Shown here piece after piece: positions 1-10,327 of a DNA stretch of 64,000 bases (its first letter is position 1; each line of letters starts with the position of its first letter). The notes beneath the pieces are model-generated. The model saw nothing but the letters and a program-made list of their open reading frames with translations, searched no databases and was not told the DNA's origin. The stretch spans positions 1 through 64,000 of the forward strand of contig VAWN01000036.1 in assembly GCA_005885555.1 (NCBI GenBank). The letters run 5' to 3'. This stretch comes from Actinomycetota bacterium (GTDB lineage: Bacteria; Actinomycetota; Actinomycetes; Mycobacteriales; Micromonosporaceae). The translations under genes and the position numbers were made by a program.

Positions 1-248
1 CGCTGCCGGGGTACCGCGAGCAGGCCGAACGGGTAGCTGTCGCGCAGGTCGCGCTTGGTGGTAAAACCGGTGCGGCGCAACGCTTCCCGGGTACCCGGAA
101 CACCGTCGCGCAGCCGGATCCGGTAGAACGGCGACCGCGCCGCGGCCGCGGCGAGCTCCGGCAGCCGGACGTCCTGCAAGGCGGCCAGCTCGTCGAAGTC
201 GCGCCACTGCCCGAGCTGCGGCCGGTCCGTCAGGGTCGTGGTGGTCAC
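1..248 (-). CDS. Phenylacetate-CoA ligase-like AMP-forming acyl-CoA ligase, N-terminal part only
   Basis: This is the first 82 codons of a gene that continues off the left edge. The translation contains the opening pattern of the PaaK family: a conserved SPFYR segment, then T-K-x-D-L-R and YPFG-x-x-AVP. This family adenylates aryl carboxylates and loads them onto CoA. The chosen GTG at 248 overlaps the TGA of the amidohydrolase gene by four bases (GTGA) and has a GGAGAGGAG ribosome site just upstream, so the gene is translationally coupled as the last visible member of a leftward operon. By context it probably activates an aminohydroxybenzoate for condensation with a second aromatic unit. The active-site and A8 motifs lie outside the window, so substrate cannot be judged. 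Confidence 0.8.
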   Translation of the reverse strand, partial: MTTTTLTDRPQLGQWRDFDELAALQDVRLPELAAAAARSPFYRIRLRDGVPGTREALRRTGFTTKRDLRDSYPFGLLAVPRQ

Positions 249-1000
249 GGACACTCCTCTCCCAGCAGGCGGTGCGCGTTGCGCCACGCCACCTTCTCCC
301 GTACCGCGGTGCTGAGCCCGAGCGCGGCCAGCTTCGCCAGTTCCACGCTCGGCTCCTGCAACGGGTACTCGGTGCCGAACACCACCCGGTCGGCGCCCAG
401 CTGCGCGATCGCCCGCCGGACCGCGACGCACCAGCAGCCCGAGGTCTCCACGATGATGTTGTCGTGGTCGGCGATGCGGTTGATGCCGTCGGTGTCGATG
501 CCGGTGAACCCGCAGTGGCCGAAGACGAACGGCACGGTGGGGAACCGGCCGGCCAGCCACACCAGGTCGGCCGCCCGCGCGCCGCGTTGGCCGGTGCACA
601 CCGTGTACACCGGATGGCCGGCGTCGGCGGCGACGCGGACGAGCGCGTACGTCGTGGCGTCGCGGAATCCGGTGCCGTACACGGCCGGGGACAGCTCCAG
701 GCCGCGGAACAGCGGCGCCTGGCGGCGGTACGGCCGCGGTCCGGCGTACGGGTTGGCGAAGTAGAACGGCACCAGGCGGCCGTCCGATCCGCCGCAGGCC
801 GCCAGCACCGCGTCGTTGTCCGCGGCCGTGGCGACGTGACCGCCCTCGACCAGTTGGCTGGACAGGCGATCCAGCTCGATGACGCCGCCCGCGCACACCG
901 CCGCCCGGGTGATGCCGCCCGCGTCCAGCGCGGCCAGCAACCGCGCCGGCGCCTCCGGCTGCGGGCCGAGCCGGACGTGGAAGTCGAACACCGCGGTCAT
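245..1000 (-). CDS. Amidohydrolase family protein (amidohydrolase_2, TIM barrel), benzoxazole-cyclase candidate
   Basis: The 251-residue protein has the amidohydrolase_2 layout: an N-terminal D6-F-H8-V-R10 strand, a GHCG motif at 161-164, an FGTEYP motif near 208-213 where the family usually has a G-S-D-x-P, and the C-terminal NAHRLLG typical of the fold. The first metal motif is D-x-H-x-R rather than D-x-H-x-H, and the late acid is Glu rather than Asp, so metal binding may be altered. The ATG at 1000 overlaps the stop of the DHQ-synthase-like gene, and the gene's own stop overlaps the ligase start. Amidohydrolases of this superfamily close the oxazole ring in the A33853 and nataxazole pathways. 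That role here is inferred from its position next to a CoA ligase and aminophenol-forming genes. A decarboxylase or ring-opening hydrolase is the alternative. Confidence 0.75.
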   Translation of the reverse strand: MTAVFDFHVRLGPQPEAPARLLAALDAGGITRAAVCAGGVIELDRLSSQLVEGGHVATAADNDAVLAACGGSDGRLVPFYFANPYAGPRPYRRQAPLFRGLELSPAVYGTGFRDATTYALVRVAADAGHPVYTVCTGQRGARAADLVWLAGRFPTVPFVFGHCGFTGIDTDGINRIADHDNIIVETSGCWCVAVRRAIAQLGADRVVFGTEYPLQEPSVELAKLAALGLSTAVREKVAWRNAHRLLGEECP

Positions 1001-2100
1001 TGCTCGTAGCACAGCTCGTCGATCGGGTACCCGACGTGCCGGTCGTGCACCGGCAGGTACCCGAGCACGACGTCCCCGGCGACCAGTGCCGTCGAGTTGA
1101 GTACCGCGCCGTCCGGCCCCAGAACCCTTACGTGCCAGTCGTCCTGGACGATCGCGTTGACCGTCCGCCCGTCCGGCGCGACCGCGTCGATGCACAGCAG
1201 CGGGCGCGACTCGATCTTGATGCGGCCGACGGTGACGATGCGGGCGTGCCCGTGCACGTCGACGGCGAGCGCGGTGCTTCCCGCGCACAGCTCGCTGAGG
1301 TACCGGGTGTGCCCGCCCGCGGTGAGCGTGTAGGACATGATGGCGCCGGCGTTGACCCGGAACGGCCGGGTCGGCATGTACGGCAACGGATGCGTCTCGC
1401 TCGCGCACAGCAGCATCCCGCGCGCCTGCGACCCGATCAGGATGCCCTCGTCCTTGCGCAGATAGGTGCACGTGTCGACGCAGGCGCGCTCGCCCATGCC
1501 GACGTGCCGGGTACCGGTGACCGTGAGCTCGGTGAGCTTCAGTTGCTCGGCACCGGGTACCGCGGCCGCCTTGAGCCGGGTCGCGTCACCGACCGCGGCC
1601 GGCGCCATGAGTACCCCGTCCGAACCCCGTTCCAGGACGCCGAACAGGATCTCGGCGTCGGTGACGTCGCGCGCCACCGTGACGATGTTGCCCTCCGCGC
1701 CGGTCGCGGCCGCCAGCACGATCTCCAGCGGGATCTTCGTCGGGTCACGGAAGTCCAGCACCGTCCAGTCGTCGGTACCCGCGCAGCGACAGGCCAGTTC
1801 GAGCGACGCCGGGTCGGTCACCGCCACGTACCGGCCGATCCGAACGCCGTTCGGCCGTGCCGCCAGCGCCGCATAGTCCTGCGGGCGGTTCGCGTCCACG
1901 ATGACGATGTCGGCCGCGCCGAGGTCGGCGGGCAGCCCGGCGGCGCCGGGCATCAGCACCTTGGTCACCGTCGGCGGCAGCCCTTCCAGGTCGGCCGGGT
2001 CGGCGGCGACGATCGCGTCGATCCGCTGGTGTACCGCCTCCGCGCGCACCGCGTCGGTCATCGCACCGCAGTTGCGGATGTCCAGCCAGCACAGCTTCAT
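997..2100 (-). CDS. 3-dehydroquinate synthase II family enzyme, GriH-like (3-amino-4-hydroxybenzoate formation)
   Basis: The 367-residue product begins MKLCWLDIRN and matches the length and overall sequence of type II dehydroquinate synthases, the archaeal family (about 360 residues) that acts on 2-amino-3,7-dideoxyheptulosonate. In actinomycetes the same family appears as GriH, which turns the C7 product of GriI into 3-amino-4-hydroxybenzoate, the grixazone precursor. The gene overlaps the aldolase-like gene by four bases (ATGA), which reproduces the griI-griH pairing. Production of 3,4-AHBA is therefore the favoured role. An alternative is a dedicated dehydroquinate supply for the PhzE reaction. 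The family is clear, but the exact product is inferred. Confidence 0.82.
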   Translation of the reverse strand: MKLCWLDIRNCGAMTDAVRAEAVHQRIDAIVAADPADLEGLPPTVTKVLMPGAAGLPADLGAADIVIVDANRPQDYAALAARPNGVRIGRYVAVTDPASLELACRCAGTDDWTVLDFRDPTKIPLEIVLAAATGAEGNIVTVARDVTDAEILFGVLERGSDGVLMAPAAVGDATRLKAAAVPGAEQLKLTELTVTGTRHVGMGERACVDTCTYLRKDEGILIGSQARGMLLCASETHPLPYMPTRPFRVNAGAIMSYTLTAGGHTRYLSELCAGSTALAVDVHGHARIVTVGRIKIESRPLLCIDAVAPDGRTVNAIVQDDWHVRVLGPDGAVLNSTALVAGDVVLGYLPVHDRHVGYPIDELCYEQ

Positions 2101-2870
2101 GACAACTCCGTCCGGCCGTGCACCAGTTCGGCGATCTTCCGGGTGACCGCGGCGAGGTCGTCGGCCTGGATGATGTTGCGCCCGATGGCCACCCCGGCCG
2201 CGCCGCCGTCGAGGGCCGCGGAAACCTGTTGCACCAACGCATCCGCAGCCTGCGCCAGTCCGCCCGCCACGAGCACGGGTACCGCCGCCGCGCGGGTGAT
2301 GTCGGCCAGCGTCGCGGCCGTTCCGGGGTGCACCGTCTTCACGATGTCGGCGCCGAGGTCGGCCGCGACCGCGACGGCGTGGGCGATCGCGGCCGGGTCG
2401 CGGGGATCGAGCGTCCGCGGGCCGCGCGGGTACATCATCGCCAGCAGCGGCACGTTCCAGCGGTCGCACGCGTCGGCCACCGCGGCGAGGTCGGCGATCT
2501 GCCGGTACTCCTCGCGCGAGCCGAGGTTGACGTGCACGCTCACCGCGTCGGCGCCCAGCCGCAGCGCCTCCTCGACGCTGGCGACGAGGTACTTCGCGTC
2601 GGGGTCCGGGGCCCGTGCGGTACCGGCGCTCAGGTGCACGATCAGCGACATGCCGCGGAACCGGGCCGGGTCGATCCGGCGCACGCAACCCTTGTGCAGC
2701 ACCACGGCGTCGACATCCTGCTCGCTGATCCGCCCGACGAGCGCGTCGAGGTCGCCGTCGGAGACGATCGGGCCATCGGTGACCGCGTGGTCCAGGGGTA
2801 CCACGAAAAGCCGCGCGCTGTGCCGGTACAGCCGAAGCAGCCGCAGCCGGCGCGCGAATGACATGGACAT
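2097..2870 (-). CDS. Class I aldolase of the ADH synthase/GriI family
   Basis: The 257-residue TIM-barrel enzyme belongs to the DeoC/FbaB-type class I aldolases that include archaeal 2-amino-3,7-dideoxy-D-threo-hept-6-ulosonate synthase and GriI. D27 (in PLDHAVTDGP), Y147 (in MMYPRG) and K178 (in DIVKTVHPG) correspond to the catalytic Asp, Tyr and Schiff-base Lys of this family. GriI condenses aspartate semialdehyde with dihydroxyacetone phosphate. The ATG at 2870 is chosen because a GGGGG run lies about five bases upstream; ATG 2864 is possible. It is the first gene of the leftward operon and is divergently transcribed from the PhzE gene. Confidence 0.82.
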   Translation of the reverse strand: MSMSFARRLRLLRLYRHSARLFVVPLDHAVTDGPIVSDGDLDALVGRISEQDVDAVVLHKGCVRRIDPARFRGMSLIVHLSAGTARAPDPDAKYLVASVEEALRLGADAVSVHVNLGSREEYRQIADLAAVADACDRWNVPLLAMMYPRGPRTLDPRDPAAIAHAVAVAADLGADIVKTVHPGTAATLADITRAAAVPVLVAGGLAQAADALVQQVSAALDGGAAGVAIGRNIIQADDLAAVTRKIAELVHGRTELS

Positions 2871-2891
2871 CGCATACCCCCGGTTCCCCCG

Positions 2892-2908
2892 CCGTCCACA
2901 GTGGACGG
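2892..2908. promoter_or_regulatory. Perfect 17-bp inverted repeat in a divergent promoter region
   Basis: CCGTCCAC-A-GTGGACGG has perfect eight-base arms around one base. It sits 21 bp before the aldolase start and about 115 bp before the PhzE start, so it could be an operator controlling both arms of the biosynthetic cluster. The regulator is unknown; the LAL protein and the TetR-like protein of the cluster are candidates. Short TCCAC/GTGGA pairs also occur inside genes, so the function is unproven. Confidence 0.4.
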
Positions 2909-3022
2909 TGTTCGCCTCCGATGCGCCGAGGCTAGCCGCGCGCTGCCGGCCGGTACCACTACCTGTGCGGGTAGCCAGGCGCCTGACCTGCGGCGGACTG
3001 CTCGGACAGGTAGTGGTGACCG

Positions 3023-4996
3023 GTGCCTGCGGCTGCCACCGTGGGACGCGTGGTCGATCTCGCCGTGCTGCCGGACGCGCCCGCGTTCGCGTTGCTGCAC
3101 CGACCCCGGTCCAACCACCCGGACCGGGTCGAGGTGCTCCTGGGCGAGGCGCAGCCGTTCGAGCGCCTCGCCGACCTGCCACTGCCCGCGCTGCGGCCCG
3201 GTCGCAGCGGACCGGACGTGCTGCTCCTGCTGCCGTACCGGCAACTCGCCGAGCGCGGCCTGGCGTGCGTGGACGACGGCACGCCGGCCGTCGCGCTGAC
3301 CGTCGCCGCACACGACACCGTCCACATAGGACAGATCCTGGCCGGCCTGCCCGACAGTGTGCCGGTCCTGCACGACGCCCGCTTCGAGCCCGACGACGGT
3401 ACCTACGGCGCGCTCGTGCGCCGCGTGCTCGCCGACGAGATCGGCCGCGGCGCCGGCTCGAACTTCGTCGTCCGCCGGTCGTTCCTCGCCACCGTGGACG
3501 ACGCCGGCCCCCGTACCGCCCTGGCCGTCTTCCGCCGCCTGCTGCTCGCCGAGCGCGGGGCGTACTGGACGTTCGTCGTGCACGGGTACGGTCGCACGCT
3601 CGTCGGCGCGAGCCCCGAGCGGCACGTCAGCCTCGCCGGCGGCGTCGCGACGATGAACCCGGTCAGCGGCACCTACCGGTACCCGGCCGGCGGCCCGACG
3701 GTACCCGACCTGGCGTGCTTCCTCGCCGACCGCAAGGAGACCGAGGAGCTGTACATGGTCGTCGACGAGGAACTGAAGATGCTCGGCCGGATCTGCGACG
3801 ACGGTGCCCGGCTGCACGGCCCGCGCCTGATCGAGATGGCGCACCTGGCGCACACCGAGTACACGGTCGCCGGGGGTACCCGCCTCGACGTGCGCGACGT
3901 CCTGCGGGAGACGATGTTCGCGCCGACCGTCATCGGCAGCCCGCTGCCCAACGCGTGCCGGGTCGTCGCCCGCCACGAAGGGCGCGGCCGCGGGTACTAC
4001 GGTGGCGCCGTCGCGCTGATCGGACAGCGCGACGGGCAGCGGGTACTCGACTCGGCCATCGCCATCCGCACCGCGGACCTGACGGCGGACGGCGGGCTCG
4101 AACTCGGTGTGGGCGCCACGCTCGTGCGCCGGTCCGACCCGGCCGCCGAGGTGGCCGAGACCCGGGCCAAGGCGCGCGGCCTGCTCGCCGCGATCGGCGC
4201 CGCGCCGCACCGCGGCGATCCCGCGCCGAACCGCGCCGATCCCGCGCCGCGCCTGGCCGCCCACCCTCGGGTGCGCCGCGCGCTGGCCGCGCGCAACGCC
4301 AACCTCGCCCGCTTCTGGCTCGCCGGGTCCGGTCGCCCGCGGCCGGTGGCCGGCCTCGCCGCCCGGCGGGTCCTGGTGGTCGACGCGGGCGACGCGTTCA
4401 CCGTGCTGCTCGCGCACCAGTTGCGCGCGCTCGGCCCGGAGGTCACCGTCCGGGGGTACCGCGACGTGCCCCGGCCCGCCGACTTCGACGTCGTGGTCGT
4501 CGGCCCCGGGCCGGGTGACCCGAACGCCGTTTCCGACCCGAAGATCGCCGCACTGCGCGGGCTGACCACCGGGCTGCTCGTCGACGGAGTACCGGTGCTG
4601 TCGATCTGCCTGGGGCACCAGGTACTCGCCGCGCTGCTCGGGCTGCCGGTACGCCGCCGTCCGCAGCCGGCCCAGGGCGAGCAGCGAACGATAGACCTGT
4701 TCGGCTGGACGGAACAGGTTTCCTTCTACAACACGTTCGCCGCGTACGCCGGAGTGGATCGGCTGTGGACGCCGGCCGGCCCGGTCGAGCTGTGCCGCGA
4801 GCGGGATACCGGCGAGGTGTACGCGATCCGCGCGCCCCGCATCCGTGGCGTCCAGTTCCATCCCGAGTCCGTGCTCACCAGGCGCGGCACGGCGATCCTG
4901 CACGAGTTGCTGACCTCGGTTCTGGACGTACCGGCCGGTGGTCCGGTACCGGCCCGGTCCGGACCGGTGGCCCGATCGGGCCGTGCCGATGTCTGA
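3023..4996 (+). CDS. phzE: 2-amino-2-deoxyisochorismate synthase, PhzE type (fused TrpE-TrpG)
   Basis: The 657-residue protein joins a chorismate-binding TrpE-like domain (about residues 30-400; SPERH, MNPVSGTYRYP and RKETEELYMVVDEELKM segments) to a class I glutamine amidotransferase domain (about 445-635). In the latter, C529 of SICLGHQ and H613/E615 of FHPES form the catalytic triad. PhzE enzymes convert chorismate and glutamine to ADIC, which feeds phenazines or, through a PhzD-like isochorismatase, 3-hydroxyanthranilate. An Arg/Pro/Asp-rich linker with the repeated segment DPAPNRADPAP lies between the domains. GTG 3023 is the first plausible start; GTG 3041 and GTG 3050 are alternatives. 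No PhzD is visible, so it must lie off the left edge or elsewhere. Confidence 0.88.
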   Translation: MPAAATVGRVVDLAVLPDAPAFALLHRPRSNHPDRVEVLLGEAQPFERLADLPLPALRPGRSGPDVLLLLPYRQLAERGLACVDDGTPAVALTVAAHDTVHIGQILAGLPDSVPVLHDARFEPDDGTYGALVRRVLADEIGRGAGSNFVVRRSFLATVDDAGPRTALAVFRRLLLAERGAYWTFVVHGYGRTLVGASPERHVSLAGGVATMNPVSGTYRYPAGGPTVPDLACFLADRKETEELYMVVDEELKMLGRICDDGARLHGPRLIEMAHLAHTEYTVAGGTRLDVRDVLRETMFAPTVIGSPLPNACRVVARHEGRGRGYYGGAVALIGQRDGQRVLDSAIAIRTADLTADGGLELGVGATLVRRSDPAAEVAETRAKARGLLAAIGAAPHRGDPAPNRADPAPRLAAHPRVRRALAARNANLARFWLAGSGRPRPVAGLAARRVLVVDAGDAFTVLLAHQLRALGPEVTVRGYRDVPRPADFDVVVVGPGPGDPNAVSDPKIAALRGLTTGLLVDGVPVLSICLGHQVLAALLGLPVRRRPQPAQGEQRTIDLFGWTEQVSFYNTFAAYAGVDRLWTPAGPVELCRERDTGEVYAIRAPRIRGVQFHPESVLTRRGTAILHELLTSVLDVPAGGPVPARSGPVARSGRADV

Positions 4997-5100
4997 CCGA
5001 TCACCCGGAAGGGGCTTTCCGTCGATGGGGTGAAGATGGTGGACTGTGCGAACGTTGTCGGTGACTCTCAGTTAGATGCCACGTCCGAGCAGGAGTTCGT

Positions 5101-7929
5101 GTGGGGAACGTACGCCTTGCCGCTGGCTCCACCGTGGTCGGTCGGGACCGCGAGCTGGCCATGCTGCATGACGTACTGGCGGCCACCGCGAACGGCACCG
5201 GCGGCTGCGCGGTGCTGACCGGCGCGCCCGGCATCGGCAAGACCCGGCTGCTGGCCGACGTCAGCGAGCATGCCCGCGCACTCGGGCTCGCCGTCGCACC
5301 CAGCCGGGCGATCGAGCTGGACCGGGCGGCGCCGCTGCGCTCGCTGCTGTCCGCGGTGGGTGCCGCCGGCCCCCGGCCGGTCGACCTCGCGCCGCTGCGC
5401 GACAATCCCGGCGACCGGCTGTGGTATGCCGAGCGGCTCGGCGACGCGCTGGAGGCCTACGTGGCCGAGCAGCCGCTGGTGATCGTCCTCGACGACGCGC
5501 ACTGGTGCGACGAGCTGAGCGCGCTGGCGCTGCGGGTACTGGTACCGCGGCTGGCCTCCTCACCGTTGCGGTGGATGCTGGCCCGCCGTCCGGTACCCGC
5601 CGACTCGCCCGCCCAGGACGCGATCGACTGGCTGGTCAGCGAGGACACCGCAGCCGAGCTGCGGCTGGGTCCGCTGGACGACGACGCGGTACAGGCGTTG
5701 TGCGCCAACGTTCTCGGCGCGGCACCGGACGCGACCGTGCTCGCGCTCGCCGCCGCCGGCAAAGGTAACCCGTTCCTGCTGGAGCAGTACCTGTCCGCGT
5801 TGAAGGACACCGGCCAGATCCTGATCGGCGACGGGGTCGCCTCCGTCGTCGGCGGCGACCTGCCGGAAAGCTTCCTGTCCGCGGTGGACCAGCGGCTGCG
5901 CGGCCTGTCCGCGCAGACCCGGCGGCTGCTGCAGGCGGGTTCGGTGTTCGGCCGGCCGTTCAGCCTGCACGCCGCGGCGCTGCTGGTCGGGCAGCCGGCG
6001 ACCACGCTGGTACCGGCCGCCGAGGAAGCCGTGTCCGCCGGCATCCTGCTCGACCAGGACGCGGTCCTGGCCTTCGCGCACGACCTGTGGCGGCAGGCGG
6101 TGTACGACAACCTCGCCGGTACCACCCGAACCACCCTGCACCGCGAGGCCGCATCGGTCGTCCGTGCCGAAGGGTGCGCGCCGGTCGAGATCGCCGAGCA
6201 CCTGGTCCGGTCCGGCCAGCGCGGCGACCGGGAAGCGGTACAGGTGCTGCGCCAGGCGGCCGAGGACGTCGCCGCGCGGGCCCCCGGGACCGCGGCGGAC
6301 CTGGCGCTGCACGCGCTGGGCATGCTGCCCGCGGACGACCCGCAGCGCAATGCGCTCGGTGCGCGGGCGGTCGGGCTGCTCGCCTCGGCCGGTCGGGTGG
6401 CGCAGGCCCGCGAGCTCGGCGAGGCCACGCTGCGCGCCGACGCGGACGGGCACACGCGGGCCACCGTCCTGCTCGGCCTCGCCGAGGCGCTCAAGCACGC
6501 CGGGCAGAACCGCACCGCCGCCGAGTACGCGCAGCGGGCGCTGGCCGATCCGGCGGTACCCGACGTGATCCGCGCGCACCTGCACGCGGTCGAGGCGCAC
6601 GCGCTGCTCTACGTCGACGATCTCGCCGGGGCCGACCGGGCCGGTACCGACGCCGACCGGCTCGGTACCGAGACCGGCGAACCGGCCGCGACCGCGTTCG
6701 GCAACTCGGCGCGCAGCGTGGTGGCCCGCGCCCAGGGGCGGCTGGACGACGCGCTCGCCTGCGCCGGAAAGGCCGTCTCGGTCTCCGACGCCGCCGGGGG
6801 TACCGCACTGCACCGCCACCCGCGCATCTGGTACGGCGCCGCGCTGGCCGCGGTGGAACGGTTCGCCGAGGCCGAAGCCGCCTACGAGGCCGGCCGGCAC
6901 AAGGCCGAGGAGCTGGGTAGCGGATGGGCGCAGCCGCTGATGCACTACTACCACTCGTGCGCCTTGTTCGCGCAGGGGCGGCTGGACGAGGCGGCGGCCG
7001 ACGCCGAGGCCGGGGTACGCATCGCCGAGCAGCTGACCGCGTTGCAGCTGTGCGTACCGCTGCTCGGACTGCTGGCGCGCATCGCCACGGTACGGGCGCA
7101 GCTGCCGGTGGCGCACGAGCACCTGCGCCGGATGAACCGGCTGCGCGCCGACGGCATCACCGCCGCACCGGAGGACGTGGCCTGGTCGATCGCGGTCGTG
7201 CAGTTCGCCGACGGGCAGGCGGCACCCGCCCTGGCCACCCTGGCCGAGCTGTTCGGCTGGCTGCCGGACCGGTTGCTGTTGCTCAGCAACGATCCCGGCG
7301 CCGGGGCCGAGCTGGTGCGCATCGCGCTGGCGGCCGCGGACACCACCCGCGCCCGGTCGGCGGCCGCGGCCGCCGGCGTGCTGGCCGGACGCAATCCCGC
7401 GGTGGCCACGTTCGCCGGAGTCGCCGCGCAGGCGGAGGGGCTTGCGCGGCGCGACCCGGCGGCGCTGCGCCGCGCGGTGGACCTGCTGCGCGACTGCCCG
7501 CGGCCGCTGGTACGGATCAGCGCGTTCGAGGACGCGGCAAAGGCGGAGAAGGAGGCGGGGCAGCGCCGCCGCGCGATCGAGCTGCTGGAACAGGCGATCG
7601 CGGAGGCGAACCGGTGCGGTGCGCGGCGGCCGGCCGAACGCATGGCGCGGCGGCTGCGGGTACTCGGCGTGCAGACCGGTACCCGCCCGGAACCGGCCGG
7701 CGGCGGCGGTGGTGGTTCGGCGCTGTCCGGGCTGACCGCGGCGGAGCGCACCATCGGGCTGCTCGTCGCGGAGGGCATGACCAACCAGCAGATCGCCACC
7801 CGGATCGGCCGCTCGCCGCACACCGTGGACAGCCACCTGCGCAACATCTTCCAGAAGCTCGGCGTCAACAGCCGGGTGGCGGTCGCCCGTGTCATCCTCA
7901 GCGAGAACCGACCGAACGGCGTGGCGTGA
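5101..7929 (+). CDS. LAL-type LuxR family transcriptional regulator (cluster activator)
   Basis: The 942-residue protein has an N-terminal AAA/STAND ATPase with Walker A GAPGIGKT at 41-48 and Walker B LDDAHW at 130-135. A long TPR-like alpha-helical middle follows, then a Gly-rich linker near 865 and a C-terminal LuxR helix-turn-helix (about 878-938, with NQQIATRIGRS and the TVDSHLRNIFQKLGV recognition region). This is the large ATP-binding LuxR architecture that commonly activates antibiotic clusters. The GTG start at 5101 has an AGGAG site seven bases upstream. Its place between phzE and the hydroxylase, in the same direction, argues for a pathway-specific activator. The 104-bp gap before it holds no other recognisable feature. 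Confidence 0.9.
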   Translation: MGNVRLAAGSTVVGRDRELAMLHDVLAATANGTGGCAVLTGAPGIGKTRLLADVSEHARALGLAVAPSRAIELDRAAPLRSLLSAVGAAGPRPVDLAPLRDNPGDRLWYAERLGDALEAYVAEQPLVIVLDDAHWCDELSALALRVLVPRLASSPLRWMLARRPVPADSPAQDAIDWLVSEDTAAELRLGPLDDDAVQALCANVLGAAPDATVLALAAAGKGNPFLLEQYLSALKDTGQILIGDGVASVVGGDLPESFLSAVDQRLRGLSAQTRRLLQAGSVFGRPFSLHAAALLVGQPATTLVPAAEEAVSAGILLDQDAVLAFAHDLWRQAVYDNLAGTTRTTLHREAASVVRAEGCAPVEIAEHLVRSGQRGDREAVQVLRQAAEDVAARAPGTAADLALHALGMLPADDPQRNALGARAVGLLASAGRVAQARELGEATLRADADGHTRATVLLGLAEALKHAGQNRTAAEYAQRALADPAVPDVIRAHLHAVEAHALLYVDDLAGADRAGTDADRLGTETGEPAATAFGNSARSVVARAQGRLDDALACAGKAVSVSDAAGGTALHRHPRIWYGAALAAVERFAEAEAAYEAGRHKAEELGSGWAQPLMHYYHSCALFAQGRLDEAAADAEAGVRIAEQLTALQLCVPLLGLLARIATVRAQLPVAHEHLRRMNRLRADGITAAPEDVAWSIAVVQFADGQAAPALATLAELFGWLPDRLLLLSNDPGAGAELVRIALAAADTTRARSAAAAAGVLAGRNPAVATFAGVAAQAEGLARRDPAALRRAVDLLRDCPRPLVRISAFEDAAKAEKEAGQRRRAIELLEQAIAEANRCGARRPAERMARRLRVLGVQTGTRPEPAGGGGGGSALSGLTAAERTIGLLVAEGMTNQQIATRIGRSPHTVDSHLRNIFQKLGVNSRVAVARVILSENRPNGVA

Positions 7930-7971
7930 ATCCGTCATGTGTCATGGGGTCCGGCGCCGCATCCTTGCCGT

Positions 7972-9615
7972 GTGCCCGCGCAGACCTTCGACACCCCGGT
8001 ACTGGTCGTCGGCGCCGGACCGGTAGGTGCGGTACTCGCCCTGGAACTGTCCCGCCACAACGTTTCCAGCATGGTCGTGGAGCGGACCCCGGCGCCGTCG
8101 ACGCATCCGAAGATGGACTACCTCAGCGGCCGCAGCATGGAGCTGCTGCGGCGGCTGGGCCTGGCCGACGCGGTACGGGAACGGGGGATCGCGTCGTACC
8201 ACTCCACCGACTTCCTGTGGACCGGCGGCTTCGAGGAGCCACCGGTGCTGGTGTGGCACCAGCCGTCGGTGGACGACATGCGCCAGCGGTACGCCAGCGT
8301 CAACGACGGTTCCGCCCCGGTCGAGCCGTACCAACGGGTACCCGGCTCGCTGCTGGAGGAGCTGGCCCGCGCGGAGCTGACCCGCCACCCGCTCGTCGAC
8401 CTGCGTGACGCGTGGGTCTGTGTGGACCTGCGCCTGGAACCGGGCGGGGTGGTGGCCACCGTCGCCGACGCGGGTACCGGCGTCCGGCACACCGTGCTGG
8501 CGCGGTACCTGGCCGCCTGCGACGGTGCCGGCAGCACCGTGCGGCGCTGCCTGGAGATCCCGCTGGACGAGTCCGGCCCCCGCACCACGCACTGCACGGT
8601 GCACTTCCGCAGTGCCGACCCGGCCCTGCGCCGGCACGGCCGGGCGTTCGTCACCATCGCGTCGGCCGGCCTGACCCTGGTCTCCCGCGACGAGGCGGAC
8701 ACCTGGACCGGCAGCGTGCCGGTCTCCCCGGACGATCCGTTCACCGATCCGGTGCTGCGCATGCAGGAACAGCTCGGCACCACGTTCGCGGTGGACAAGG
8801 TGCTCAGCGTCGCGCAGTGGGAGGGCGCGCTGGCGGTGGCGACCGCGTACCGCAAGGGATCGGCGTTCCTCGCCGGGGACGCGGCGCACCAGTACTACCC
8901 GTCCGGCGGCCACGGCGCGAACACCGGCATCGGCGACGCGGTGGACCTCGGCTGGAAGCTCGCCGCCGCGGTACAGGGCTGGGGCGGGCCGCGGCTGCTG
9001 GACAGCTACGCGGCCGAGCGCCGGCCGGTGGCGCTGCTCAACCGCGAGCTGTGCGCCGCCCTGCTGGAGGTGCGGCGCCGGTTCGCCCGGCTGTGCGCCG
9101 CCGGTACCCCGCGGGAGCAGATCGCCGGGATCCTGGAGACCGACGTCCACCAGATCGACAACATCGGTGTCCACTTTGGACAGAGGTACGGCGACTCGCC
9201 GGTGATCTGCCACGATCCGGCCGAGGCGCCGAGCTGGCAATGGGGCCGGATCGTACCCACGACGTGGCCGGGTGGCCGGGCGCCGGCGGTACGCCTGGCC
9301 GACGGAAGCCAGCTGTTCGACCGGTTCGGCCCGGGATTCACCCTCGTGGACCTGTCCGGTCGGGGTACCGGAGCGGCGCTCGTCGCGGCGGCCGTCGCGC
9401 GCGGGATCCCGATGGTCCACCTACCGGTCGCGGACACCGCCGTTCGGGCCTGCTGGGAGCGCGACCTGGTGCTCGTACGGCCGGATCAGCACGTCGCCTG
9501 GCGGGACGATCTGGCACCGGCGGACTGGGACGGGGTACTCGATCGGGTGACCGGGAACGCGACCACGCGAACACGCCATGTGCCCGCCGACCTCGCCCAC
9601 CAGACTCTGGCGTGA
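7972..9615 (+). CDS. FAD-dependent aromatic hydroxylase (FAD_binding_3 family)
   Basis: The 547-residue protein carries the dinucleotide motif VVGAGPVGA (GxGxxG at 14-19) and the second FAD motif GDAAHQYYPSGGHGANTG near 302, followed by DAVDLGWKLA. This is the p-hydroxybenzoate hydroxylase-like class, with a C-terminal thioredoxin-like extension as in phenol and polyketide hydroxylases. It would insert a hydroxyl into an aromatic ring using NAD(P)H and O2. The GTG at 7972 is preferred because residues upstream (from GTG 7939) are not family-like, though neither start has a strong ribosome site. It follows the LAL gene by 42 bp and probably tailors the cluster product or a precursor. Confidence 0.88.
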   Translation: MPAQTFDTPVLVVGAGPVGAVLALELSRHNVSSMVVERTPAPSTHPKMDYLSGRSMELLRRLGLADAVRERGIASYHSTDFLWTGGFEEPPVLVWHQPSVDDMRQRYASVNDGSAPVEPYQRVPGSLLEELARAELTRHPLVDLRDAWVCVDLRLEPGGVVATVADAGTGVRHTVLARYLAACDGAGSTVRRCLEIPLDESGPRTTHCTVHFRSADPALRRHGRAFVTIASAGLTLVSRDEADTWTGSVPVSPDDPFTDPVLRMQEQLGTTFAVDKVLSVAQWEGALAVATAYRKGSAFLAGDAAHQYYPSGGHGANTGIGDAVDLGWKLAAAVQGWGGPRLLDSYAAERRPVALLNRELCAALLEVRRRFARLCAAGTPREQIAGILETDVHQIDNIGVHFGQRYGDSPVICHDPAEAPSWQWGRIVPTTWPGGRAPAVRLADGSQLFDRFGPGFTLVDLSGRGTGAALVAAAVARGIPMVHLPVADTAVRACWERDLVLVRPDQHVAWRDDLAPADWDGVLDRVTGNATTRTRHVPADLAHQTLA

Positions 9616-9676
9616 CCTGCGGAGGCGGACGCACGGCCGGTGCGCCGCTGACATTGCTGCGGCAGGAGGTGGCGTT

Positions 9677-10327
9677 GTGACCGTCGAGCAGATGCCCGCC
9701 AGGATGGACGACACCGTCTCCGCCCGCTGGCGGCGGCGGCTGGCCGGGGTACGGCCGGACGAGCGGCGGCACTGGCGTACCCGCACCGCCTACTACGCGG
9801 CGGTCGACCGGCTGCTGGCCGACGGGGTACCGCGGCCCGCCTGGTTCGACGTCATCGAGGCGGTGCGGCCGAAGGGCAGCCGCAGCACGTTCTACGAGGT
9901 GACCGGGGCGCACGCGAAGTACTCGCTGATCCAGGACCTGCTCGCCCAGGACGGCGTCGACTCGATGCAGCTCGCCCTCTACTACCGGCGTACCTGCGCC
10001 GTCGACCAGCTCATCGACGAGGCCAAGGTGTGGACCTACTGGCCGTACCGCGAGTGCCTGTCGATGCGGTACCGCGTCGAGGAGCCGGACGCGGACGCGT
10101 CGCTGGACCTGCTCGCCGCCACCGTCGGTGCCTGGGCCCGCCGCAACACGGGTCTGGCCATCGCGCTGTCCTGCGCGCCTCCGGTGTGCGCGGTCGAGGA
10201 TCTGCTCGTCCTGCGGCCCGGCGAGTACTCCGCGGTGCACGCGATGGGCACGCTGACCCAGGTGGTGCGCGACGCCATCGGCGGTCCGGCCGACCCGACG
10301 CGCTGGCCGGTCACCTTCGCGCTCTGA
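9677..10327 (+). CDS. Small TetR-like helix-turn-helix protein of the biosynthetic cluster
   Basis: The 216-residue protein is read from GTG 9677, which has a strong GCAGGAGG site. Around residues 55-85 the segment FDVIEAVRPKGSRSTFYEVTG resembles the helix-turn-helix of TetR regulators (G-x-S-x-x-T-F-Y), and the rest is helical. It does not otherwise match a family recognised from memory. It lies 61 bp after the hydroxylase on the same strand and is the last gene of the cluster side, so it may sense the product or control export genes outside the window. The DNA-binding assignment is tentative. Confidence 0.55.
   Translation: MTVEQMPARMDDTVSARWRRRLAGVRPDERRHWRTRTAYYAAVDRLLADGVPRPAWFDVIEAVRPKGSRSTFYEVTGAHAKYSLIQDLLAQDGVDSMQLALYYRRTCAVDQLIDEAKVWTYWPYRECLSMRYRVEEPDADASLDLLAATVGAWARRNTGLAIALSCAPPVCAVEDLLVLRPGEYSAVHAMGTLTQVVRDAIGGPADPTRWPVTFAL

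Follow-up and report, generated by a model that had tools for sequence, protein, structure and literature searches.

The first 10,327 positions of the DNA analysed here (64,000 nucleotides of contig VAWN01000036.1, assembly GCA_005885555.1, from an actinobacterium of the family Micromonosporaceae; hereafter the window) hold one part of a gene cluster that probably represents a second, unprenylated type within the diazepinomicin (dibenzodiazepinone) family of clusters. This type is widespread in Micromonosporaceae. An earlier note, made from the sequence, had taken the genes for part of a benzoxazole pathway; a dibenzodiazepinone is the more likely product. Diazepinomicin, whose core has been described as structurally unique, was taken as far as a phase II trial; its pathway is said to rest mostly on a hypothesis from 2008.

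A core shared with clusters of the diazepinomicin layout

Every gene named in the earlier note was found in this part of the window by translation and family searches, and the gene set is far from chance. The minus strand carries genes for a GriI-like protein (2097..2870, start codon picked by eye; PRK07226, 281 bits, above cut-off), a GriH-like 3-amino-4-hydroxybenzoate (3,4-AHBA) synthase of the 3-dehydroquinate synthase II family (997..2100; DHQS, E=7.5e-102), an amidohydrolase-fold protein of 251 residues (245..1000; PF04909, E=2e-23), and the N-terminal 82 codons of a NatL2/BagE-like PaaK-type AMP ligase (3..248; BagE_FevW profile positions 2-68). The GriH-like protein scored 527 bits with the 3-dehydroquinate synthase II subfamily model, above its cut-off, and 538 bits with the BagC/FevH exception model, under its cut-off of 750. 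Divergent from this griI operon, on the plus strand, lies the gene of a PhzE-like 2-amino-2-desoxyisochorismate (ADIC) synthase (3023..4996), which matches the solved PhzE 3r74 with E=7e-174 as against about 5e-18 for TrpE, has both a chorismate-binding and a glutamine amidotransferase domain, and retains the catalytic Cys and the HPE motif.

The earlier note placed the rest of the cluster off the left edge. The cluster does continue beyond it, and the edge itself proved to be the end of a contig, window position 1 being base 1 of contig C148 and not an arbitrary cut. Searching the genome by profile showed the operon to continue on contig C101 beyond about 470 missing bases, with the C-terminal 207 codons of the ligase (C101:103720-104343, minus strand; BagE_FevW profile positions 224-421), a second FAD monooxygenase, termed FMO_c (C101:102594-103727), an SDR of the 2,3-dihydro-2,3-dihydroxybenzoate dehydrogenase (DhbA/EntA) type (C101, about 101824-102597; 321 bits against the dhbA cut-off of 300) and PhzD (C101:101107-101793, corresponding to L088:16108-16794; 1nf9, E=8e-69). 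Measured against the intact ortholog in locus L168, about 156 ligase codons are absent between the two contigs. We infer the joint of C101 and C148, which is supported by the unbroken gene order in relatives; with it the window cluster has the core order griI-griH-amidohydrolase-ligase-FMO_c-SDR-phzD, interrupted inside the ligase gene by the contig gap. The PhzD and the dehydrogenase expected to the left were thus both found; an acyltransferase had been expected there too, and none of the BomK-like kind was seen in the cluster flanks. Since GriI and GriH (3,4-AHBA) as well as PhzE, PhzD and the SDR (3-hydroxyanthranilate, 3-HAA) are present, both precursor routes are encoded in one cluster, as had been proposed.

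The grouping is conserved. In about 18 of 80 GriH-bearing loci of other genomes the genes for 3-HAA, the ligase, the amidohydrolase and FMO_c are present completely or for the most part, with the order from griI through phzD unchanged, and the same core is kept in dozens of actinobacteria. A close homolog of the amidohydrolase occurs in at least 40 of 301 genomes of the host family besides the window. Two main architectures were seen among 20 fetched loci. Type A loci carry an ABBA prenyltransferase. In type B, the window type, genes for a LuxR regulator, an aromatic hydroxylase (FMO_w) and a protein termed P0007 stand divergent from griI, and phzE lies there too in all but one; apart from the window, this type was seen in at least nine loci of Micromonosporaceae, and L008, on a contig that ends early, is probably another.

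The core and phzE are common to the window cluster and at least 11 clusters near an ABBA prenyltransferase gene. In the type A cluster of M. chalcea, genes for a polyprenyl synthetase, a diphosphomevalonate decarboxylase, an HMG-CoA synthase, the ABBA prenyltransferase and a sensor kinase precede the core, in the order published for orf10-orf11-orf12 of diazepinomicin (PMC3871700), and the type A flanks examined agree. The prenyltransferases of M. chalcea and S. toyocaensis are 61.7% identical, and those of the published pair DzmP/Ssrg_00986 61.4%. Ring A of diazepinomicin was traced to 3-HAA by feeding, with PhzE-, PhzD- and MxcC-like genes (PMC3871700). The window shares PhzE-, PhzD- and EntA/MxcC-type 3-HAA genes with this cluster (also ECO-4601 or TLN-4601; known from Micromonospora 046-ECO11, from RV115 through dzmP, and from S. 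griseoflavus Tu4000), its PhzD with a substitution discussed below, and genomes with the published order of HMG-CoA synthase, prenyltransferase and sensor genes, M. chalcea among them, have the griI-griH-amidohydrolase-ligase-FMO_c core as in the window. Since this core, including the pair of ligase and amidohydrolase that had been regarded as the hallmark of benzoxazole assembly, also occurs in clusters of diazepinomicin layout, the pair is not specific to benzoxazoles; in genome mining it should not by itself be taken as proof of one.

Unlike the diazepinomicin cluster, the window cluster lacks the DzmP-type prenyltransferase and the mevalonate genes, which diazepinomicin itself requires, and has genes for a LAL-type LuxR regulator, a CRP-like regulator and P0007. 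The ABBA prenyltransferase family PF11468 is absent from the whole genome, while the same search, as a positive control, matched in 12 of 24 relatives; in a second genome set, among genomes with type B or related clusters, the family occurs only in G055, about 870 kb from the cluster. A supply of mevalonate from elsewhere in the genome was considered and rejected, as only two HMG-CoA-synthase-like matches were seen on other contigs (C112:108510-109592, 243 bits; C104:40738-41811, 242 bits), both under the cut-off and perhaps from polyketide beta-branching.

Trees of the amidohydrolase, PhzE and GriH are concordant. The prenylated clusters fall into a single clade (80/83, 100/100 and 100/100, respectively) and the window lies on a separate branch, where it groups with L008 and L167 (99/96, 100/99, 99/97) and these join the remaining type B loci (98/93, 99/98, 100/97). 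The simplest reading of the trees, which have no outgroup, is that the unprenylated core is old and gained farnesylation a single time. With the presumed dibenzodiazepinone core set apart from prenylation, the type B family indicates which genes would form a minimal set for it.

Loss of metal ligands in the amidohydrolase

The AlphaFold model of the window amidohydrolase is a confident barrel (pLDDT 95.4), and its nearest structures by Foldseek are gamma-resorcylate and 5-carboxyvanillate decarboxylases and ACMSD. The metal site is depleted: His8 and His162 are kept, the second His is replaced by Arg10 and the beta-5 His by Val134, and the beta-8 acid is Glu211. In an alignment to LigW, a His of LigW stands opposite the lost beta-5 position. 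Position 10 is Arg in 41 of 45 aligned rows and His in the remaining four, which come from loci with 3,4-AHBA genes only (L021, L026, L055 and L063); the beta-5 His is kept in these and is Val in the others. The amidohydrolase of L052 is intermediate, with HxR and the beta-5 His, according to one of two alignments, the second of which misplaces L052. In the tree the four rows with His fall into a single clade and therefore count as one evolutionary event, not as repeated evidence. Paired in this way, the proteins, which have metal ligands in the 3,4-AHBA-only clusters and lack them in the window, amount to a natural experiment on how a fold leaves metal chemistry.

The benzoxazole-forming NatAM has about 494 residues and binds zinc through His75, His77 and His253 (PMC7204872). 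The window protein has about half that length, HxR for HxH, Val for the beta-5 His (His253) and Glu for the beta-8 acid (Asp345), and NatAM was not among its phmmer or profile matches. With metal ligands lost and a size unlike that of NatAM, zinc-dependent closure of a benzoxazole by this protein appears unlikely from its sequence.

A proposed pathway and its rivals

The ligase is of the NatL2 type by homology: its intact ortholog in L009 matches AjiA1 (4e-182) and NatL2 (4e-181) in the PDB, and the part on C101 retains the NatL2-type zinc motifs C-x5-H and CxC, so that ester formation may be predicted. Of the benzoxazole assembly first suggested, the ligase therefore fits and the amidohydrolase does not. 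FMO_w (7939..9615, plus strand) is a RebC/RdmE-like FAD-dependent aromatic hydroxylase and the proposed ring hydroxylase. Decarboxylative hydroxylases acting on 4-hydroxybenzoate, vanillate and salicylate are among the solved proteins closest to FMO_c; others, including the top match, tropone 2-monooxygenase, are not decarboxylative.

We propose that GriI and GriH would produce 3,4-AHBA, that FMO_c would then exchange its carboxyl for a hydroxyl and FMO_w hydroxylate a further carbon, giving 2-amino-6-hydroxybenzoquinone or the hydroquinone, and that PhzE, PhzD and the SDR would convert chorismate to 3-HAA. The NatL2-like ligase would adenylate 3-HAA and pass it to the aminophenol, either as an ester that shifts to an amide or as an amide directly, after which the amine of 3-HAA and a quinone carbonyl would condense, assisted by the amidohydrolase-fold protein, to 4,6,8-trihydroxy-dibenzodiazepinone. 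In the sister clusters the ABBA prenyltransferase would then add farnesyl, a step before which the window cluster would stop. Observed are the gene content and order, the homologies, the phylogeny and the loss of the metal site. The two precursor routes follow from well characterised families; the oxygenations, the coupling, the ring closure and the product are steps that we infer.

Ring B of diazepinomicin has been published as formed via 2-amino-6-hydroxy-1,4-benzoquinone (PMC6524458), from a precursor thought to be 3-amino-5-hydroxybenzoate (PMC3871700; PMC6524458). In this ring C9a and C5a bear nitrogen, and C6 and C8 bear hydroxyls. On this pattern 3,4-AHBA could be mapped with its C1 carboxyl replaced by a hydroxyl (C8), C5 hydroxylated (C6) and the C4 oxygen displaced by the amine of 3-HAA (C5a), which requires two hydroxylations of the ring, one of them decarboxylative and the other an ordinary aromatic one; two FAD monooxygenases are encoded in the window cluster. 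Since 3-amino-5-hydroxybenzoate likewise needs two oxygenations, the number of monooxygenases does not decide between the precursors. We favour 3,4-AHBA because the griI-griH pair is present in all these clusters, because several have aspartokinase genes, in some adjoining griI, because FMO_c homologs stand directly behind griH in loci without phzE, and because the AHBA-synthase-family gene (PF01041) is missing from the two Micromonospora type A clusters examined. In S. toyocaensis a PF01041 gene lies about 20 kb in, at the end of the locus. Extended to diazepinomicin itself, the proposal predicts a specific correction: 3,4-AHBA, and not the published precursor, would give rise to ring B. Literature searches found nothing on diazepinomicin with an amidohydrolase, and nothing resembling a pathway paper on diazepinomicin with 3,4-AHBA. 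The complete proposal, namely that an undescribed and widespread cluster type makes an unprenylated dibenzodiazepinone, that its seven-membered ring is closed by an amidohydrolase-fold enzyme devoid of a metal site, and that ring B of diazepinomicin stems from 3,4-AHBA and not from the aminoshikimate pathway, is put forward tentatively, as a possibility.

Several observations weigh against assigning the cluster to the dibenzodiazepinones. The ligase is closest to benzoxazole ligases, about 470 bp of its gene are unsequenced, and identity between the window-type FMO_w and the hydroxylase of the prenylated clusters is only about 43%. The link to diazepinomicin rests on the published layout and on prenyltransferase identity, not on the sequence of 046-ECO11, and searches of openly accessible papers gave no product for any type B cluster. 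In addition, PhzD of this genome has Arg (codon AGG) at the position of the catalytic Lys122 (1nf9 numbering), which is Lys in all other members examined, and this change may impair the supply of 3-HAA.

The substitution could also be a sign of decay or a block of the cluster in this genome, with 3-HAA formation stopped in PhzD and at most 3,4-AHBA-derived products left. We regard this as very unlikely, since all reading frames of the cluster are open except at the contig break and Lys to Arg is a conservative change; AAG and AGG may be confused by a sequencing error, so that the Arg may reflect an error or, if real, be either tolerated or a lesion. A mixed benzoxazole, in which an ester formed by the NatL2-like ligase from 3-HAA and 3,4-AHBA (or a hydroxylated form of the latter) would be cyclised by the amidohydrolase, is the strongest of the rivals, though still unlikely. 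It agrees with the type of the ligase and its zinc motifs, and with the formation of benzoxazoles via an ester by NatL2 plus NatAM and, on 3,4-AHBA, by PfxC plus PfxB. However, in the short amidohydrolase Arg and Val take the places of expected metal-binding His residues, whereas its homologs in 3,4-AHBA-only clusters retain these His residues; the two FAD monooxygenases would be superfluous for a simple benzoxazole of 3-HAA and 3,4-AHBA, and clusters laid out like that of diazepinomicin contain the same core. For these reasons, and since no BomK-like acyltransferase was seen in the flanks, the benzoxazole is no longer taken as the likeliest product.

Pairs of an aminophenol and an aminoquinone readily give rings of the phenoxazinone or phenazine type, and 3-HAA could accordingly be coupled oxidatively with 2-amino-6-hydroxybenzoquinone to such a tricycle. 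In L178, L182 and L183, which are of the window type, a PhzF-family gene (PF02567) adjoins phzD and no SDR match was seen within the fetched stretch, which suggests a different ring A unit there. The window cluster, by contrast, does have the SDR, and a PhzF homolog was seen neither within the window nor in the fetched C101 stretch; PhzA/B had no match in the genome, a weakly controlled result as no control genome matched either. As such a coupling would also leave the ligase without a role, and as the sister clusters have a DzmP-type prenyltransferase, we consider a phenoxazinone or phenazine improbable, somewhat more so than the mixed benzoxazole.

The dibenzodiazepinone assignment also has to be set against other known clusters. 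Those of nataxazole, AJI9561, A33853 and microechmycin share the 3-HAA route and the NatL2/AjiA1-type PaaK ligase with the window; they differ in their NatAM-type amidohydrolase, where the window has a short PF04909 protein without HxH, and the window has GriI/GriH and two FAD monooxygenases in addition and no BomK-type acyltransferase in view. The closoxazole clusters (clx of C. cavendishii, pfx of P. fallax) share GriI/GriH-type genes, a ligase and an amidohydrolase (ClxD and PfxB there) with it; they are built on 3,4-AHBA (plus 4-aminobenzoate, 4-ABA) and have two ligases, whereas the window adds the 3-HAA genes and two monooxygenases. The GriI-, GriH- and PaaK-like proteins match the BagB, BagC and BagE models of bagremycin/ferroverdin (bag/fev), all under the curated cut-offs, and membership in that group was rejected; that pathway is not known to include 3-HAA genes. 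Mycemycin, a dibenzoxazepinone, did not match either, its 513-residue amidohydrolase being assigned to kynurenine formation and its units being anthranilate and salicylate.

Regulators and related loci

Downstream of phzE on the plus strand are genes for a LAL-type LuxR regulator with AAA ATPase and GerE domains (5101..7929), found in the same place in window-type clusters, and, behind FMO_w, for the helical protein P0007 (9578..10327), a signature of the window-type cluster. P0007 had no match in Pfam or NCBIfam, and homologs occur in 55 of the 301 host-family genomes, at the same position in the window-type loci examined. The family is about 200-220 residues long, and the true start is probably inside the open reading frame. 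A profile search of the PDB gave the TetR protein 3kkc as top match (E=0.84, weak), so P0007 is perhaps a TetR-like regulator; its structure model (pLDDT only 57.6) was too poor for a fold search. At the other end of the cluster, genes for a CRP-like and a short LuxR-type regulator adjoin phzD (C101:100123-101154), and a CRP-like gene is also near the cluster in L167, L179 and L185.

Phytohabitans suffuscus has a prenylated (L169) and an unprenylated (L182) version of the cluster in one genome. In two prenylated clusters a large protein is encoded near phzE (L056:2489-4540 and L043:3174-5168); that of L056 resembles a multicopper oxidase by eye and could oxidise the aminohydroquinone. The four 3,4-AHBA-only loci have griI, griH, a ligase and an HxH-keeping amidohydrolase (in L063 not beside griH), and are candidate actinobacterial closoxazole-like benzoxazole clusters.

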